This document shows positions 2,049-10,796 of a stretch of 13,966 bases of DNA, piece after piece; the stretch's first letter is position 1; each line of letters starts with the position of its first letter. The notes beneath the pieces are model-generated. The model made no database searches and had not been told where the DNA came from. It was given only the letters and a program-made list of their open reading frames with translations. The translations under genes were made by a program, and so were the position numbers. Source of the stretch: Candidatus Dadabacteria bacterium (GTDB taxonomy: Bacteria; Desulfobacterota_D; UBA1144; Nemesobacterales; UBA2774); assembly GCA_003229065.1 (NCBI GenBank), contig QIHJ01000014.1, forward strand, positions 1 through 13,966, read 5' to 3'.

Positions 2049-3617
2049 CTAATCGCGGGTTAGTCTCCTTTTAACCATACCGAACAGAAAGTCCGACTCT
2101 TTTACCCTGAGCAACTTTGCAAGCCCGAAGTAAATCACCGCCGAAAGTACGATCGAACCTGCTAATACGCCGATTTTCTCCCATGAAAATTGCGAATCGC
2201 TCCAATCCGCAAGTCCCGAGAACTTCCATGCCGCAGCGCCCATAATTAGTGATATCGGGACTAGTTTTGCGCATAGAATCAGTATGGATTTTACCTTTAT
2301 GTCACCGACCCGTCTCTCAACCAGGTAAAAGAGCAGAATAAAATTGAGAATAGAAGAGATAGAGCTTGCTACGGCGAGGCCGGTGTGAAGCATCCCGAGC
2401 TTAAAGCCCAGCACATAACCGAATACCGCGTTGGCTATGAATGCTATAAAGGCAATTATGACCGGGGTTTTCGTGTCCTGCATCGCGTAGAAAGCGGGGG
2501 CCGTAATCCTTATCCCCCCGACTGCCCAGAGCCCGAGCGCATAGCCGAAAATGGCCTGAGAGGTAAATATTGTAGCCGCATAGGAAAATTCGCCTCTCTG
2601 GTAGAGGAGATTACAGATAGGTACCCTGAGCACGATAAGGCCTACCAGGGCCGGTATCAGTATGAAGAGCATTATCCTCAAAGTGTAGGAGTAGGTCTCC
2701 CTGAATTTCCCGAATTCCCCTTTTGATATGTGTGAGGAGAGACTCGGGAGCAGCACGGTTGCGATAGATACGGCGATTATCCCAAGCGGGAACTCTATCA
2801 GCCGCTCGGCAAAATAGAGGTAGGAAATACTCCCCTGAGGCATAAACGAGGCGTACTGTGTGTTGACTATTATATTGATCTGGTAAACGGCTACTCCGAA
2901 GAGTTGAGGGACAATTAACAGGGCTATACGTTTGACCGCCGGGTGTCTGAAGCTCTTATTAAATCCAAATAGAAAACCGCGGGTTTGTAAAAACGGAAGC
3001 TGCAGCGCAAACTGGAGAACCCCTCCCAGCATAACGCCCACAGCGGCAGAGTAAATCGGGACGCCGAGGCTCCGGTGGATAAAAAATATTGCTGCTATAA
3101 TGCAGATATTCGAAAGAGCGGGAGAAATGGCCGGTGCGAAGAAATGCCTGAGCGAGTTCAGCACGCCCATGGATAGAGCGGTAAGCGAAATGAATAGTAT
3201 ATACGGGAACATGTAGCGGTTAAGCGTTACTGCCAGATCAAACGTTTCTGCGTCGAAACCGGCTGCGAATAATTTGATTATGTATGGAGAGAGAAGCACG
3301 CCCGCTATAGATATAAGTACTAAAAGACAAAACAGTATCGTAAATACCGTGTCTGCGACCTTTTTGGCCTCTTCTTTATTGCCTTTTTCCAGGTAATCGG
3401 TGAAAACCGGAATAAAGGAGATCGTGAGCGACCCCTCGGCAAAGAGCCGCCTAAGGAGGTTGGGTATTCTAAACGCTACCCAGAATGCATCAGTCGAGGC
3501 GGATGCGCCAAAGAAATATGCTATAACCATATCCCGGGCGTACCCTGCAATCCTGCTTAGAAAGGTAAGTGAGCCGACAAGTCCGGCAGAGCGGGTTATT
3601 TCTTCATGCTGTTTCAT
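2049..3617 (-). CDS. murJ: Lipid II flippase MurJ (MviN family)
   Basis: Inner-membrane flippase of the MOP superfamily, thought to move lipid II from the cytoplasmic to the periplasmic face for peptidoglycan polymerisation. The 522-aa product matches the usual family length and is strongly hydrophobic with many membrane segments. The N-terminus carries the family signature: FLSRIAGYARD (19-29), FFGASASTDAF (35-45) and FRIPNLLRRLFAEGS (49-63), including Arg and Asp residues that line the transport cavity in E. coli MurJ. It ends with the basic tail VKRRLTRD and a TAG stop. Its ATG overlaps the TGA of the small upstream gene (ATGA, 3617-3614), so translation is probably coupled; the local Shine-Dalgarno match is weak. 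It is divergent from the dcw cluster, whose product lipid II it would transport. Confidence in the assignment is high. Confidence 0.96.
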   Translation of the reverse strand: MKQHEEITRSAGLVGSLTFLSRIAGYARDMVIAYFFGASASTDAFWVAFRIPNLLRRLFAEGSLTISFIPVFTDYLEKGNKEEAKKVADTVFTILFCLLVLISIAGVLLSPYIIKLFAAGFDAETFDLAVTLNRYMFPYILFISLTALSMGVLNSLRHFFAPAISPALSNICIIAAIFFIHRSLGVPIYSAAVGVMLGGVLQFALQLPFLQTRGFLFGFNKSFRHPAVKRIALLIVPQLFGVAVYQINIIVNTQYASFMPQGSISYLYFAERLIEFPLGIIAVSIATVLLPSLSSHISKGEFGKFRETYSYTLRIMLFILIPALVGLIVLRVPICNLLYQRGEFSYAATIFTSQAIFGYALGLWAVGGIRITAPAFYAMQDTKTPVIIAFIAFIANAVFGYVLGFKLGMLHTGLAVASSISSILNFILLFYLVERRVGDIKVKSILILCAKLVPISLIMGAAAWKFSGLADWSDSQFSWEKIGVLAGSIVLSAVIYFGLAKLLRVKESDFLFGMVKRRLTRD

Positions 3618-3829
3618 GTGTATTCAATCTCTTCGAAATCAAGCTCACTCTTTAAATCCTGCAAAAGCGCCCTTGCTTCATCTTCCCTGTCCGGTGTCGT
3701 TATAATGTTTATCACCCCGGAGGCGGGGTCATCTGTCCTTACCCAGGCAAGGTGTGAGTAGGTTCCCATTATTGATTGGAAATACACTGCCTCGCTGTTA
3801 TCTCTCAGTTTTATACGAATAACCGGCAT
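3614..3829 (-). CDS. Small DUF4911-like protein, first gene of the murJ operon
   Basis: A 71-aa protein of unknown function. It reads MPVIRIKLRDNSEAVYF at the start, has a central YSHLAWVRTDDPASGVINI, and a charged helical end (DREDEARALLQDLKSEL). The pattern of a basic N-terminal strand, an Arg-Thr-x-Asp-Pro turn followed by a Gly-x-Ile/Val strand, then a Leu-rich helix resembles DUF4911 proteins of deltaproteobacteria and relatives. That match is from memory and moderately sure. It has no signal peptide or membrane segment. I chose the ATG at 3829; the same frame also opens at a TTG at 3844 with no Shine-Dalgarno sequence. Its stop overlaps the murJ start, so the two are co-translated, which hints at a role linked to envelope synthesis without proving it. 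Confidence 0.8.
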   Translation of the reverse strand: MPVIRIKLRDNSEAVYFQSIMGTYSHLAWVRTDDPASGVINIITTPDREDEARALLQDLKSELDFEEIEYT

Positions 3830-3863
3830 AGAAGTTAATCCCAAAATATATAATCTGATCGCA

Positions 3864-5680: not shown

Positions 5681-6004
5681 TTGGGTGCGAGACAGAAGAT
5701 AAAAAGAGAGAATAAAGCAGTATCGGGCGGCTTACTGCTCTTAGTTGTACTCTCTGTCGCCTTGGCGCTCGGCTATCTGAGGATTAAGGCGGAAGCTATA
5801 AGGCTCGGATATGAAATCTCCTGGAACGAGAAAGAAACCAAGGAGCTCCTTAAAGAAAATAAGACGCTTAAGTCTGAATTTATGAAAGCAATATCCGCCG
5901 ATAGCCTCGAAGGCACGGCAATGGAGCTTGGATTTAAGTTTCCTACCCAACAAGACATTGTATACGTTGAGCAAAAACATATTCTTAGTGATAAGATGGA
6001 ATGA
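5681..6004 (+). CDS. ftsL: Cell division protein FtsL
   Basis: A 107-aa bitopic membrane protein of the divisome, expected to act with FtsB and FtsQ to scaffold and activate FtsW-FtsI at the septum. It has a basic cytoplasmic start (RQKIKREN), one membrane segment at about 15-33, then a periplasmic coiled coil rich in Glu, Lys and Leu at about 45-72. The end, LGFKFPTQQDIVYVE, is characteristic of FtsL. Sequence conservation in this family is low, so position between rsmH and ftsI carries much of the call. The only standard start in reach is a TTG at 5681 with a weak upstream AAGG; the frame is open back to a stop at 5618-5620 but without ATG or GTG. Its TGA overlaps the ftsI ATG. Confidence 0.88.
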   Translation: MGARQKIKRENKAVSGGLLLLVVLSVALALGYLRIKAEAIRLGYEISWNEKETKELLKENKTLKSEFMKAISADSLEGTAMELGFKFPTQQDIVYVEQKHILSDKME

Positions 6005-7926
6005 AAAAGAAAAAAAGTTCCAAAAGAATATCACTTGGTAGAGACCTGAACAGGCCCAGATGGAGGGTGTGTTTCATGGGGTTTCTCTTACTCGTGCTTT
6101 TTGCGGGAATATCATTTAAAGCGCTAGAGCTGCAGGTGCTGGACAGAGAGCGCGCATTTAAAATAGCGAAAAAACAGCACCACGGAAGCTCGAAGCTCCT
6201 TCCCCGAAGAGGAAAGATACTAGACCGGAACTTAAAAGAGCTTGCAGTTAATGTAGAGGTTAAATCCGTCTACGTTAACCCAAGAGATGTAAAAAACCCG
6301 GTCGATATATCAAAAACAATATCAAAACATATTAATGTATCTCAGAAAACTGTGCTCTCAAGAGCATCGTCAAAAAGGTCCTTTGTATGGCTTAAAAGAC
6401 TTGTGGACCCGTCGATCACTGAGGCGCTTGAGGGTTTGGATCTAGAGGGTGTGGGGTTTATCGAAGAGCCCAAAAGGATATATCCAAATGCGCACCTTAT
6501 GGGACAGGTGCTCGGGTTTACAAATATTGACTCAAACGGAATCGAAGGGATAGAGTATCACTTCGATAACCTTCTTATCGGAACCCCTAGAAATATTACA
6601 CTGAAGAGAGACGCCAGAGGGCGTAAGATCATACAAAATCCAGATATAGTACAGGATTTTGACGAAGAGAATACCACAGGCCATGACATAGTGCTGACTA
6701 TCGACTCGCAGATCCAGCACATTGTGGAGAGGGAGCTAAAAGAGGGTATTGAAATCATGAACGCCGAGAAGGGTATGGCGATTCTTATGAACCCCGAAAC
6801 CGGTGAAGTGTTGGCAATGGCCTCTTACCCCTTTATCGATCCGAATAGCTACGGTAAATACCCTGAGGCAAACAGGAGAAACCTGCCGATCTGGTATACG
6901 TATGAGCCCGGCTCCACGATGAAGGTCTTCCTGGCGGCCTCGGCGCTCGAGGAGGGCAAGGCCAATCCCGACACGATGTTTGACTGTGAGCTTGGCAGAA
7001 GAAAGGTCGGGTCAAAGGTCATAAAGGATGTAAAGCCTTACGGAAATCTTACATTTACAGATGTAGTTAGGGTATCGAGTAATATAGGGGCATCTAAGAT
7101 CGGAGAGCTCCTTGGGAGAGAGAAATACCATAGCTACCTAAAGAAATTCGGCTTCGGTGAGAAATCGGGGATCGATCTCCCCGGGGAGTCCAGCGGAAAG
7201 GTTCTTCCTCCTAAGAAATGGGGCAGGATAGAGCTTGCGACGATCTCGTTCGGACAGGGAATATCGGTAACTTCACTCCAGCTTGTCACGGCGCTCTCAG
7301 CGATTGCAAACGGAGGGTATTTGATGGAGCCTTATATAATAAAAAAAATTATAGGCTCTGACGGAAGGGTTATAAGAGAAAAGAGGCCCGAAGTGCGCTC
7401 ACGAGTAATGTCCTACGATACGTCTTATCAAATGAAACTAATAATGGAAAAGGTAGTGGAAGAGGGTACGGGAAAGAAGGCTCGGATCAAAGGGTTTTCA
7501 GTCGGTGGTAAAACGGGCACCGCGCAAATTCCCGATCCCAGATATGGTGGGTACTACAGTGACCGCTATATAGCCTCTTTTATCGGGTTTGCACCCACGG
7601 ACGACCCGAAGTTGTCCATGGTAGTAGTTGTAGAAGCTCCCCGCAATAAGACACACGGGGGCTCGGTAGCCGCTCCTATCTTCAAACAGATTGCGGAAAA
7701 AGTCTTGTTCCATATGGGTGTTTCCCCCAAGAACGTATACGCGGGCACAAAAATTATGCCTGACTTGAGCGGTATGAGCGTGAGAGATATTCTTAAGTGG
7801 TCGGAGACAGAAGGTGTGAAAGTAGAAGTAAAGGGGAGCGGCTATGTAACGGACCAGGACCCTTCACCCGGAGACTTTATTCAAGAGGGAATGGTTTGTT
7901 CTATTGAGCTGCAGCCGAAAATATGA
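6001..7926 (+). CDS. ftsI: Septal transpeptidase FtsI (class B PBP with PASTA domain)
   Basis: A 641-aa class B penicillin-binding protein that cross-links septal peptidoglycan in the periplasm, working with FtsW. A basic N-terminus leads into one membrane anchor (about 21-43). The PBP dimerisation region follows, with RRGKILDRN (69-77). The transpeptidase domain has all three catalytic motifs: STMK with active-site Ser305 and Lys308, SSN (359-361), and KTGT (504-507). A single PASTA domain occupies about 585-641, starting near MPDLSGMSV. PASTA-bearing FtsI/Spo VD-like enzymes occur in several phyla but not in E. coli FtsI. It is joined to ftsL and murE by ATGA overlaps at both ends, suggesting coupled translation. 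Confidence 0.95.
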   Translation: MKKKKSSKRISLGRDLNRPRWRVCFMGFLLLVLFAGISFKALELQVLDRERAFKIAKKQHHGSSKLLPRRGKILDRNLKELAVNVEVKSVYVNPRDVKNPVDISKTISKHINVSQKTVLSRASSKRSFVWLKRLVDPSITEALEGLDLEGVGFIEEPKRIYPNAHLMGQVLGFTNIDSNGIEGIEYHFDNLLIGTPRNITLKRDARGRKIIQNPDIVQDFDEENTTGHDIVLTIDSQIQHIVERELKEGIEIMNAEKGMAILMNPETGEVLAMASYPFIDPNSYGKYPEANRRNLPIWYTYEPGSTMKVFLAASALEEGKANPDTMFDCELGRRKVGSKVIKDVKPYGNLTFTDVVRVSSNIGASKIGELLGREKYHSYLKKFGFGEKSGIDLPGESSGKVLPPKKWGRIELATISFGQGISVTSLQLVTALSAIANGGYLMEPYIIKKIIGSDGRVIREKRPEVRSRVMSYDTSYQMKLIMEKVVEEGTGKKARIKGFSVGGKTGTAQIPDPRYGGYYSDRYIASFIGFAPTDDPKLSMVVVVEAPRNKTHGGSVAAPIFKQIAEKVLFHMGVSPKNVYAGTKIMPDLSGMSVRDILKWSETEGVKVEVKGSGYVTDQDPSPGDFIQEGMVCSIELQPKI

Positions 7927-9203
7927 CTTTATGTGCTTTGATCGAAGGGACCCGAGTAACTAAACAGACAGGCTCGGGTGAAGTATATATAAGCGGTATA
8001 TCGATTGATTCGAGTAAGGTAGAGAAGGGGTTTTTATTCGTCGCATTAAAAGGAGAACGGACAGACGGCCATAAGTACGTAGAGTCTGCCGTTTCAAACG
8101 GCGCTTCTGCAGTGATGGTCGAAAGGGCTCCTGAATCGGTATATAAAGGAGTTACGGTGATAGAGGTTCCGGACTCGAGGGTGGCGCTTGCGGGTGTTTC
8201 GGCTAATTACTACGCTCACCCTACAAAAGAGCTTTCACTTGTAGGCATTACAGGCACAAACGGTAAAACTACGATAACTTACCTGCTCGAGTCCATATGG
8301 ATACAAGAGAGACTTAAGTCGGCTGTTTTGGGCACTATTGATTACCGCTACGGCGGGAGCAGGTTGGAATCGCTTATGACTACGCCTGAGTCTTTGGAGC
8401 TTATGAGGATGTTCAGAGAAATGAGAAATTCAGGAGTAGAGATAGCGGCTATGGAAGTCTCGTCGCACGCGCTTGAAAAAAAAAGAGTTATTGGCTGCCA
8501 TTTTGACGCTGCCGTATTCACAAATCTAACCCAGGACCATCTGGACTATCACGGAACCATAGAAAATTATTTTAATACCAAGAAAACACTCTTTACCGAT
8601 GTTCTAAAAAATAGCGAGAAGGAAAGGAAGTTCTCCATAATAAATATAGACGACCCTTACGGTGAAGAGATCAGAAAAGAAGCCCCGGGCGAAGTAATTA
8701 CCTATTCGACCCACGACCCGAGCGCCCTGGTATTCGCCGAGAGCTCGGAGATTACTGAGCGCGGAATCCGGGCCAGGATAAATACGCCCGCAGGCACGCT
8801 GGATATTAATTCAAAGCTCTACGGGACTCATAATTTATCAAATTTACTGGCCGCTTCAGCCACTGCAGTGTCTTTGGGGTCTTCTCTCGATTACATAGAG
8901 AAAGGGCTATCGGAAATTTCCGCGATACCGGGACGTTTGGAGAGCGTTGACAATACGCTCGGTATAAAGGTGCTCGTAGACTATGCGCACACTCCCGACG
9001 CTCTGGAAAACGTGCTCAGAGCCGCAAGACCGTTGACCGCAGGTAATCTGATTCTCGTGTTCGGATGCGGCGGCGACAGAGACAGAACAAAACGGCCTCA
9101 AATGGGTTTGATTGCTAAAGAGCTTTCGGACATTCTATTAGTAACCTCTGATAACCCCCGTACCGAATCTCCTGAAAAGATTATAGACGATATAGAAGAG
9201 TGA
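7923..9203 (+). CDS. murE: MurE (UDP-MurNAc-tripeptide synthetase), N-terminal 426 residues, ended by in-frame TGA
   Basis: MurE adds the third stem-peptide residue to UDP-MurNAc-L-Ala-D-Glu in the cytoplasm, using ATP. This part holds the UDP-substrate domain, the ATP-binding domain with TGTNGKTT (110-117), the DHLDYHG region with the probable carbamylated Lys220, and half of the third domain ending after DNPR (410-413). DNPR is the signature for meso-diaminopimelate as substrate, indicating a Gram-negative type wall. Codon 427 is TGA, and the same frame continues for 69 codons to a normal MurE C-terminus. The total, 496 codons, fits the 495 aa of E. coli MurE. In E. coli the equivalent residue is Gly (AGML against E-stop-VL here), so a GGA-to-TGA change is the simplest explanation. 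The ATG overlaps the ftsI stop. Confidence 0.9.
   Translation: MTLCALIEGTRVTKQTGSGEVYISGISIDSSKVEKGFLFVALKGERTDGHKYVESAVSNGASAVMVERAPESVYKGVTVIEVPDSRVALAGVSANYYAHPTKELSLVGITGTNGKTTITYLLESIWIQERLKSAVLGTIDYRYGGSRLESLMTTPESLELMRMFREMRNSGVEIAAMEVSSHALEKKRVIGCHFDAAVFTNLTQDHLDYHGTIENYFNTKKTLFTDVLKNSEKERKFSIINIDDPYGEEIRKEAPGEVITYSTHDPSALVFAESSEITERGIRARINTPAGTLDINSKLYGTHNLSNLLAASATAVSLGSSLDYIEKGLSEISAIPGRLESVDNTLGIKVLVDYAHTPDALENVLRAARPLTAGNLILVFGCGGDRDRTKRPQMGLIAKELSDILLVTSDNPRTESPEKIIDDIEE
9201..9203 (+). other. In-frame TGA inside murE
   Basis: This codon replaces a conserved-type Gly between IIDDIEE and VLGDGDSQ with no change of frame. A GTG follows directly (TGAGTG), so reinitiation is conceivable. 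A weak stem (GCTTGG 9206-9211 with CC-AG-AAGC 9224-9231) lies just downstream and could in principle aid readthrough. It may equally be a single-base sequencing or assembly error. Confidence 0.85.
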
Positions 9204-9413
9204 GTGCTTGGAGATGGGGATAGCCAGAAGCCGTACTTCAGGGTTTCGGATAGAAAAGAGGCGATCGGCCGCGCTATAGGCATGGCGCGTGAAAACGACA
9301 CGGTTTTAATTGCGGGGAAGGGGCACGAGGACTATCAGATTGTCGGAACGAAAAAATTTCCCTTTGACGACAGAATAATTGCAGGTGATGCACTTAGGGA
9401 GCGAATGAATTAG
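9204..9413 (+). CDS. murE: MurE C-terminal fragment (same frame after TGA)
   Basis: Sixty-nine codons continue the murE frame after the TGA. They encode the end of the Mur ligase C-terminal domain, including [12 protein letters not shown] with the GKGHED motif that contacts the amino-acid substrate and ATP side in MurE, and a typical tail ([16 protein letters not shown]). A GTG sits right after the TGA, but the upstream Shine-Dalgarno match (AGAAGAG at 3 nt) is too close to be convincing. The fragment is too short to fold as a whole domain. I read it as the rest of murE rather than a separate gene. If the TGA is real and not read through, the gene is broken at a point that should abolish activity. 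Confidence 0.8.
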
Positions 9414-9434: not shown

Positions 9435-10796
9435 TTGGAGTTTAGCTTTCTTCTTAACGGAACCGACGGGAAGCTCGTCTCGGGTGAGGGTAGGGGACAG
9501 CTGAGTGGCGTTTCGACCGATACGCGGAAAATAAGCCGGGGCGAAGTGTTTTTTGCCCTAAGGGGAGAGAACTTCGACGGGCATAAGTTTATAGATGAGG
9601 CTTTTCAAAAAGGCGCATCCGCCGCTGTTGTAGAGAGGGCTCCCAAAAATTTAAACTCCGCAGGCGCTTTGGTACAGGTGGGATCGACCCTCAGGGCGCT
9701 CGGTAACCTTGCCAAGAGCTGGAGAAACTCTTTAAGCGAGATCGAGCTTGCCGCAATTACGGGCTCAAACGGCAAAACCACCACAAAGGAAATGGTGTCT
9801 AGCATAATTTCCTTAAATCACAGCACTTTAAAGAATTCCGGAAACTTCAATAACCTGATAGGGCTCCCGCTCACACTTCTTGAGCTTAACGAGAGCGTTG
9901 AGATGGCTGTAGTGGAGCTCGGAATGAATGATTTCGGGGAAATAAGGAGGCTGTCTCAAATTGCACAGCCTGACGTAGGAGCCATAACAAATATCGGCAG
10001 GGCGCACCTGGAGAAACTCGGCGGTATAGAGGGGGTAGCTAAAGCCAAGGGGGAGCTTGTGGAGGGGCTTCATAAAAACAGCTTTTTCGTTGTAAACGCC
10101 GACGATCCGAGGGTGCAGAAAATAGCGGATGATACAAATTGCAGGAAAATTACCTACGGAATAGAGTCTGAGGGGTCCTTCATAACAGGGGACTCGATTG
10201 AGGAAAAGGATTTCTCGGGAATTAAATTTTATATGAGTGTTGCAGGTGAGGGGTTTCCCGTAACGCTTCACACGATCGGTATTCACAATGTGATGAATGC
10301 CCTGTGTGCGGCGGGGATTGCCTATGGTCTTGGCTGCGTAGCTGATGAAATCAGAGAAGGTCTCGAGAAGTTTAAACCCGTGCACCTGAGACTCGAGGTG
10401 TGTGATAGTCCCCAGGGTTTCAAAGTTATCAATGACTCTTATAATGCCAATCCCGACTCCATGCGCCGCGCTATAGATGAGCTTATGCGTCTTAAAGGCG
10501 GCGGACGAGCGGTGGCCGTAATAGGTGATATGCTGGAGCTTGGTGAAGCCAGTGAGTCCGAGCACCGAGGGATCGGGGAATACTTATCTTCATCGGGAGT
10601 AGACTACGTAATTACATACGGGAATTTCGGAGCTACTGTACTGGACTCGCTTTCAAACGGGACCGTAGGCGTATATGCCGCCACTCACGAAGAAGCTGCG
10701 TCTGCTTTGAGAAGCTATGCCGACAAAGACGATTTGGTTTTGATTAAAGGGTCCCGGGGCATGCGTATGGAAGAAGTTATTAAAAACTTGAGTTAA
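9435..10796 (+). CDS. murF: UDP-MurNAc-tripeptide--D-Ala-D-Ala ligase MurF
   Basis: A cytoplasmic ATP-dependent ligase that adds D-Ala-D-Ala to UDP-MurNAc-tripeptide, completing the pentapeptide. The 453-aa product starts at a TTG with a canonical AGGAGG. Motifs: SGVSTDTRKISRGEVFFAL in the substrate domain (25-43), ITGSNGKTTT (108-117, P-loop), the NNLIGLPLTLLELN segment typical of MurF, VVELGMNDFGEI, NADDPRV, and NDSYNANPDSM (333-343), a MurF hallmark in the C-terminal domain. The near-end GSRGMRMEEV is also typical. It follows murE by 21 nt and precedes mraY by 14 nt, the standard order. Confidence 0.96.
   Translation: MEFSFLLNGTDGKLVSGEGRGQLSGVSTDTRKISRGEVFFALRGENFDGHKFIDEAFQKGASAAVVERAPKNLNSAGALVQVGSTLRALGNLAKSWRNSLSEIELAAITGSNGKTTTKEMVSSIISLNHSTLKNSGNFNNLIGLPLTLLELNESVEMAVVELGMNDFGEIRRLSQIAQPDVGAITNIGRAHLEKLGGIEGVAKAKGELVEGLHKNSFFVVNADDPRVQKIADDTNCRKITYGIESEGSFITGDSIEEKDFSGIKFYMSVAGEGFPVTLHTIGIHNVMNALCAAGIAYGLGCVADEIREGLEKFKPVHLRLEVCDSPQGFKVINDSYNANPDSMRRAIDELMRLKGGGRAVAVIGDMLELGEASESEHRGIGEYLSSSGVDYVITYGNFGATVLDSLSNGTVGVYAATHEEAASALRSYADKDDLVLIKGSRGMRMEEVIKNLS

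Follow-up and report, generated by a model that had tools for sequence, protein, structure and literature searches.

A lone in-frame TGA in the murE gene of a draft Dadabacteria genome, probably a base-level error

The DNA analysed here, hereafter the window, is the whole of contig QIHJ01000014.1 (13,966 bases; contig C8) in a draft genome of Candidatus Dadabacteria bacterium (assembly GCA_003229065.1, referred to as G000) that comprises 2,048,275 bases in 446 contigs and is 80.3% complete and 3.04% contaminated. The window carries murE, the gene for MurE, UDP-MurNAc-L-Ala-D-Glu--meso-diaminopimelate ligase, an enzyme that is normally essential. On the forward strand at 7923-9413, the murE frame runs for 426 codons, meets a TGA at codon 427 (9201-9203), continues for 69 codons and ends at TAG. 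The interrupted gene consists of the following parts:

7923..9200, forward strand: N-terminal 426 codons of murE (N-piece), with Mur domains 1 and 2, the first part of domain 3, the GTNGKT loop and DNPR (NF001126, 503 bits; TIGR01085, 459 bits; Pfam Mur_ligase, Mur_ligase_M and Mur_ligase_C, the last over positions 1-92 of 127)
9201..9203, forward strand: in-frame TGA, codon 427, glycine in relatives (comparison with homologues and with the loci of relatives)
9204..9413, forward strand: C-terminal 69 codons of murE and TAG (C-piece), with the remainder of domain 3 and GKGHED, opening with GTG (Val428) (NF001126 and Mur_ligase_C)

An initial reading made from the letters of the window and its open reading frames (the sequence-only reading) had proposed that a single TGA splits an otherwise intact murE without a frameshift, and both parts of this proposal hold. 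MurE homology is present in the same frame before and after the TGA, and the two pieces match consecutive stretches of the same profiles: positions 1-419 and 425-485 of the 486 in NF001126 (E = 3.1e-19 for the C-piece), positions 4-409 and 415-471 of the 472 in TIGR01085, and positions 1-92 and 96-127 of the 127 in Pfam Mur_ligase_C, such that only about 3–5 profile positions are missing at the break. Because both pieces hit the same families consecutively, there is no frameshift. The N-piece alone, with 503 bits against the curated NF001126 cut-off of 373 and matches to the three Mur ligase domains, belongs to the MurE family; the C-piece supplies the rest of the NF001126 profile positions, and by itself this 69-residue piece lies under the Pfam Mur_ligase_C cut-off (23.9 versus 28.4 bits). 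Placed side by side, the two pieces have the same domain order, motifs and length as known MurE (NF001126 and TIGR01085; PDB 1E8C, 7B53 and 2WTZ), and DNPR is of the meso-diaminopimelate type, as in known MurE; the difference is the single in-frame TGA at a glycine position. DNPR (residues 410-413) and GKGHED (residues 465-470) lie exactly where they had first been placed and, in the sequence as given, do not stand in one polypeptide but are separated by the TGA. The GKGHE motif presumably holds the residue called Glu-468. According to PMC3829189, the Asp of DNPR and the Glu of GKGHE (Glu-468 in E. coli) bind the substrate side chain together. Because the 426-residue product lacks the last 69 residues and with them GKGHE, it should be inactive on its own.

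Comparison with relatives indicates that the stop is private to this assembly. Glycine occupies position 427 in all of 122 full-length homologues (the best 120 of 1,699 matches and 2 from a search with the N-piece), in agreement with the residue initially expected there. The closest homologue among those listed, P0002, is 95% identical, intact and 496 residues long; it represents a cluster of 5 sequences on 4 contigs, of which only the representative was compared. A murE match at E < 1e-100 is present in 36 of 40 relatives, with an open murE frame of at least 497 aa in 35 and a frame cut by the contig end in the 36th (G006); no match at this threshold was found in G008, G012, G015 and G025 (59-86% complete). 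We took 29 of these 36 loci, all from the same order, for codon reading, and the homologous codon is GGN in 28 of the 28 that were readable. The corresponding codon is GGG in the same-genus relative G001 (hereafter the sister genome), and the alignment of sister genomes that had been proposed as a check reveals no relative that shares the stop. At distant loci in other phyla, the position holds Gly, Ala, another residue or a gap, and no stop in any of them (Glu and Ile at L043 and L047, Ala at L046 and L054, six gapped; no residue could be read at L051-L053 and L055). Among named relatives, Candidatus Dadabacteria bacterium UBA2774 came out nearest, with 85% across the stretch that matched. 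Of note, the window alone also has Ala at position 398 (9114-9116), where all 30 sequences of one alignment have Gly.

If the stop were old, murE would be expected to decay. Relative to P0002, and with changes polarised by seven outgroup proteins, 11 amino-acid changes in murE are window-derived, 8 are P0002-derived and 7 cannot be assigned to either; behind codon 427, the corresponding numbers are 0, 1 and 1. With the more distant genome G010 as the outgroup and over 494 codons, 14 changes are specific to the window and 22 to the sister genome, of which 2 and 5, respectively, are in the C-piece, and these counts resemble those in the rest of the cluster. Neither relative-rate test (the one with G001 and G010 or the one with P0002) gave a clear acceleration, and we rejected pseudogene decay as an explanation. 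Judging from these counts, the part after the stop appears to be as well kept as the part before it. Because no change behind the stop can be assigned to the window since its split from the 95% relative, old decay is unlikely; the pattern of constraint would suit an error, a mutation of very recent origin or a functional bypass and would speak against an old pseudogene.

A decaying copy would also have to be backed by another murE. A protein search with the 426-aa product and a DNA search with 301 bases around the stop found no second murE in the 80.3%-complete draft, and the backing copy considered in the sequence-only reading has therefore not come to light. The DNA search met the window itself only. 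The protein search also met murF and murD, which are above their own TIGR cut-offs, and a gene on contig C24; the one piece of this gene that was classified, 180 aa long, fits murC best. A second copy could lie in the missing fifth of the genome, but neither piece of murE nor the rest of the cluster shows a clear sign of decay, relatives typically have one murE next to other Mur ligases (among the matches listed), and the gene belongs to a cell-wall and division cluster that is otherwise intact and of ordinary order, mraZ-rsmH-ftsL-ftsI-murE-murF-mraY-murD (ftsL being named from its place only). We regard a decaying copy with a hidden backup as extremely improbable.

To place the murE stop in the context of the draft genome, we compared the frames of the sister genome (104 places, of which 93 are of at least 150 aa) and of a second relative, G002 (69 places, of which 61 are of at least 150 aa), with 61 of the 446 contigs (the largest of 21,012 bases). 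After exclusion of matches with less than 60% (G001) or less than 50% (G002) identity, stretches shorter than 30 aa and frames that shared an overlap of more than 30% with a better match, the survey comprised 133,281 bases of distinct coding sequence (~44,000 codons). In this part of the draft, the murE TGA is the sole mid-gene stop in frames of at least 150 aa, and no split match in G000 was found in the comparison with the frames of either relative. The comparison from the sister genome gave 19 stops: the one in murE, one at codon 486 of 488, twelve early ones and five in the middle of short frames. The twelve early stops lie in the first 30 codons of stop-to-stop query frames (ten in frames of at least 150 aa and two in shorter ones) and are probably upstream of the real start; the five mid-frame stops fall in four frames of 105-130 aa, including one that runs antisense to ftsL. 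The comparison from G002 gave four stops, i.e. murE and three within the first 6 codons. The reverse comparisons gave further stops as well as four split matches in G001, three of them with a frame change; the contigs of G001 contain runs of N.

Based on these observations, the murE TGA is probably a sequencing or assembly error at the level of a single base. A single wrong base in the consensus of this metagenome-assembled contig would create the TGA; the organism most likely would have an ordinary, unbroken murE with Gly427, the codon would be translated without any special event, and the reads would not be expected to support the TGA. An error fits best because the stop is private, is the sole mid-gene stop in the large frames compared, occurs in a fragmented draft and is not followed by decay; in short, the stop is confined to one assembly and its flanks are still constrained. 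Because 4.1% of single-base changes make a stop, one erroneous stop in the compared sequence would imply an error rate of ~1.8e-4 per base (Poisson range 4.6e-6 to 1.0e-3), which would be plausible if the draft is of low coverage. As reported in PMC11017572, assembly errors associated with low coverage account for many of the internal-stop pseudogenes in public bacterial genomes. The murE case resembles the false pseudogenes described there in that a single internal stop interrupts an intact, constrained gene in a fragmented draft while near relatives are intact; it differs in that that study concerns pseudogene counts in RefSeq assemblies and reassemblies and not this genome, for which we infer the error. 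We also considered an oxidation-type error spectrum, but the murE G>T/C>A counts (7/1 among window-specific changes versus 9/7 on the branch of the sister genome) have no such signature.

Several observations are less easily reconciled with an error. The draft is otherwise clean, with neither another mid-gene stop in the large frames nor a split match in the part compared. Because the GGG of the sister genome is two substitutions away from TGA, an error also requires a different Gly codon underneath, and none was seen for this strain. Moreover, sites that are invariant in the outgroups have changed 8 times in the window and 4 times in P0002; these are small numbers, and the excess may point toward relaxed constraint or toward further errors. 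Three changes (I2T, S4C and D5A; 7926-7937) crowd into murE residues 2-5, at sites invariant in seven near outgroups, and could reflect additional errors or simple drift next to the ftsI overlap.

The same evidence bears on a second explanation, in which the TGA is a real and very recent nonsense allele that a minority of the population (or non-dividing cells) would carry; the assembler would have picked it by chance, and it would have no function. Intact flanks and the lack of decay suit a very young mutation as well as they suit an error, the large frames of the compared draft hold no other such stop, and the allele would be lethal if fixed because the draft has no second murE. For the same reason, and given that MurE is normally essential, few of the reads should carry such an allele, and relatives typically show one murE (among the matches listed). 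We consider a minority allele unlikely, while still the most credible of the explanations that compete with a base-level error.

If the TGA is real and the gene is functional, it would have to be translated or bypassed. Loss of release factor 2 (RF2, encoded by prfB) and a tRNA with a UCA anticodon are the marks of the UGA = Gly code of the Gracilibacteria/SR1 type. In G000, RF2 has not been lost: prfB is present on contig C97 (532 bits, cut-off 370) and has no internal stop. Among 133 homologue-supported G000 frames of at least 150 aa, 63 end with TAA, 36 with TAG and 28 with TGA while 6 run off the contig; TGA thus ends 28 of the 127 readable frames, or 27 of 126 if murE is excluded. In the window, exactly five other genes stop at TGA, the number initially counted, and these are the glycoside hydrolase family 5 (GH5)/CBM2 open reading frame, the DUF4911 open reading frame, ftsL, ftsI and murD. 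No tRNA with a UCA anticodon is among the 23 tRNAs found in G000, and neither is tRNA-Trp, -Lys, -Thr or -Ile; because this set is clearly incomplete and many standard tRNAs are missing, the lack of the UCA tRNA carries little weight. Rather than in-frame UGA codons at glycine positions of many conserved genes, we found one case in 133,281 distinct coding bases, counting frames of at least 150 aa. In Gracilibacteria/SR1/BD1-5, conserved genes as well as proteomics indicate that UGA stands for glycine, as stated in PMC4032931. The murE stop is like this code in sitting at the glycine position of the homologues, and unlike it in that UGA serves as a normal stop in G000, which has RF2, and in that one gene is affected of those compared. 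Genome-wide recoding of TGA is therefore unsupported, and among the literature matches listed for stop-codon recoding, no paper names Dadabacteria.

A selenoprotein UGA is marked by tRNA-Sec, by Cys in homologues and by a SECIS-like hairpin after the UGA. Selenocysteine is unsupported because no tRNA-Sec scored over the cut-off in a search of G000, the residue is Gly and not Cys in 122 of the 122 listed homologues, the hairpin after the TGA is no stronger than in shuffled sequences (z -0.45) and an Rfam scan of the window gave nothing above the gathering score. As a side observation, the intact genes of the sister genome and G010 have a more stable hairpin near the homologous Gly codon (L128:8573-8632 and L208:6202-6261; z -2.1 and -2.7), although the folded segments are offset from one another: relative to the first base of that codon, the segment from G001 begins one codon earlier and that from G010 begins 16 bases later.

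In another explanation, readthrough is restricted to this one codon, with a near-cognate or suppressor tRNA yielding some full-length MurE. The frame and the constraint on it continue past the stop, an essential gene would need some rescue if the stop is real, and with tRNAs such as those for Trp, Lys, Thr and Ile missing from the 23 found, there is room for a suppressor. Against this stand the high-scoring prfB, the use of TGA as a normal stop in the 28 of 127 readable frames (murE's own included), the absence of a UCA anticodon among the tRNAs found and of tRNA-Sec over the cut-off, and the ordinary hairpin. Readthrough of this codon is, in our judgement, highly unlikely. Thus, where the sequence-only reading had ranked error or readthrough as most likely, error stands as the best fit, while readthrough is unsupported, given RF2, the frequency of terminal TGA, the hairpin and Gly in place of Cys.

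Alternatively, ribosomes would terminate at the TGA and begin again at the GTG that follows it, and the resulting 426-aa and 69-aa pieces would assemble into an active enzyme. The GTG directly after the TGA (9204), noted at the outset as a possible restart, is there, but the same GTG is an ordinary Val codon in the sister genome. The anti-Shine-Dalgarno energy before it is unremarkable at -2.4 kcal/mol, a value that 69.8% of 1,775 internal ATG/GTG codons in G000 equal or better. Because the real murE start (-1.9 kcal/mol) and the murD start (-2.4 kcal/mol) score no better (murF, -11.6 kcal/mol), this measure leaves a restart possible, and a weak site is compatible with coupling. The break adjoins a length-variable stretch of domain 3, both pieces have kept their motifs, and the C-piece has no window-derived change relative to P0002. 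On the other hand, the joint action of the DNPR Asp and the GKGHE Glu on the substrate side chain (PMC3829189) means that the two pieces would have to re-form one site.

Searches with the pieces yielded one sequence of interest for a two-piece MurE. P0122, found with the C-piece, is a 69-aa protein that starts at the homologue of V428, and comes from another lineage, a 72%-identical relative, on a 3,651-base contig. Because it begins with V and not M, P0122 suggests a gene cut by the contig end; other C-piece fragments have scattered starts (20 of 102 hits aligned), and we treat the shared start as a probable coincidence. No homologue of ~426 aa is among the best 120 of 143 N-piece matches, in which clustering at 90% could hide one; likewise, the searches with both pieces met nothing identical to the window's own pieces, and this assembly may be absent from the database or hidden in a cluster. 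We consider a two-piece enzyme very unlikely, and grade just as low the broader proposition of a working MurE across a genuine UGA, whether the enzyme consists of two pieces that are held together non-covalently and part next to the variable stretch of domain 3, or is made by readthrough, in this single gene, of the codon for an invariant Gly.

With a base-level error as the preferred explanation, the murE stop is most likely a caution: in a draft genome from a metagenome, a single wrong base gives an essential gene a broken appearance, and such a murE could be labelled a pseudogene during automatic annotation. A real stop would be a rare case of an interrupted essential enzyme with no second copy found, and a test of how the cell survives it; if a dadabacterial MurE does work across a real UGA, P0122 would be a second case.

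The genes on either side of murE are as follows:

6001..7926, forward strand: ftsI, ending with TGA and overlapping the murE start by 4 bases (ATGA)
9435..10796, forward strand: murF, which follows murE in the cluster and has an open frame and a strong ribosome site (TIGR01143, 437 bits; cut-off 288.6)

Further upstream, a small open reading frame on the reverse strand (3614-3844) has a DUF4911 domain and a 4-base overlap with the start of murJ. A partial open reading frame (2-1894), open at the contig end, encodes a cellulase of glycoside hydrolase family 5. The protein also has two CBM2 stretches, linkers rich in Pro and Thr, and Asp/Gly-rich repeats of the type CSDG.DNDGDGLTDYP; it is an unusual gene to find next to a cell-wall cluster.

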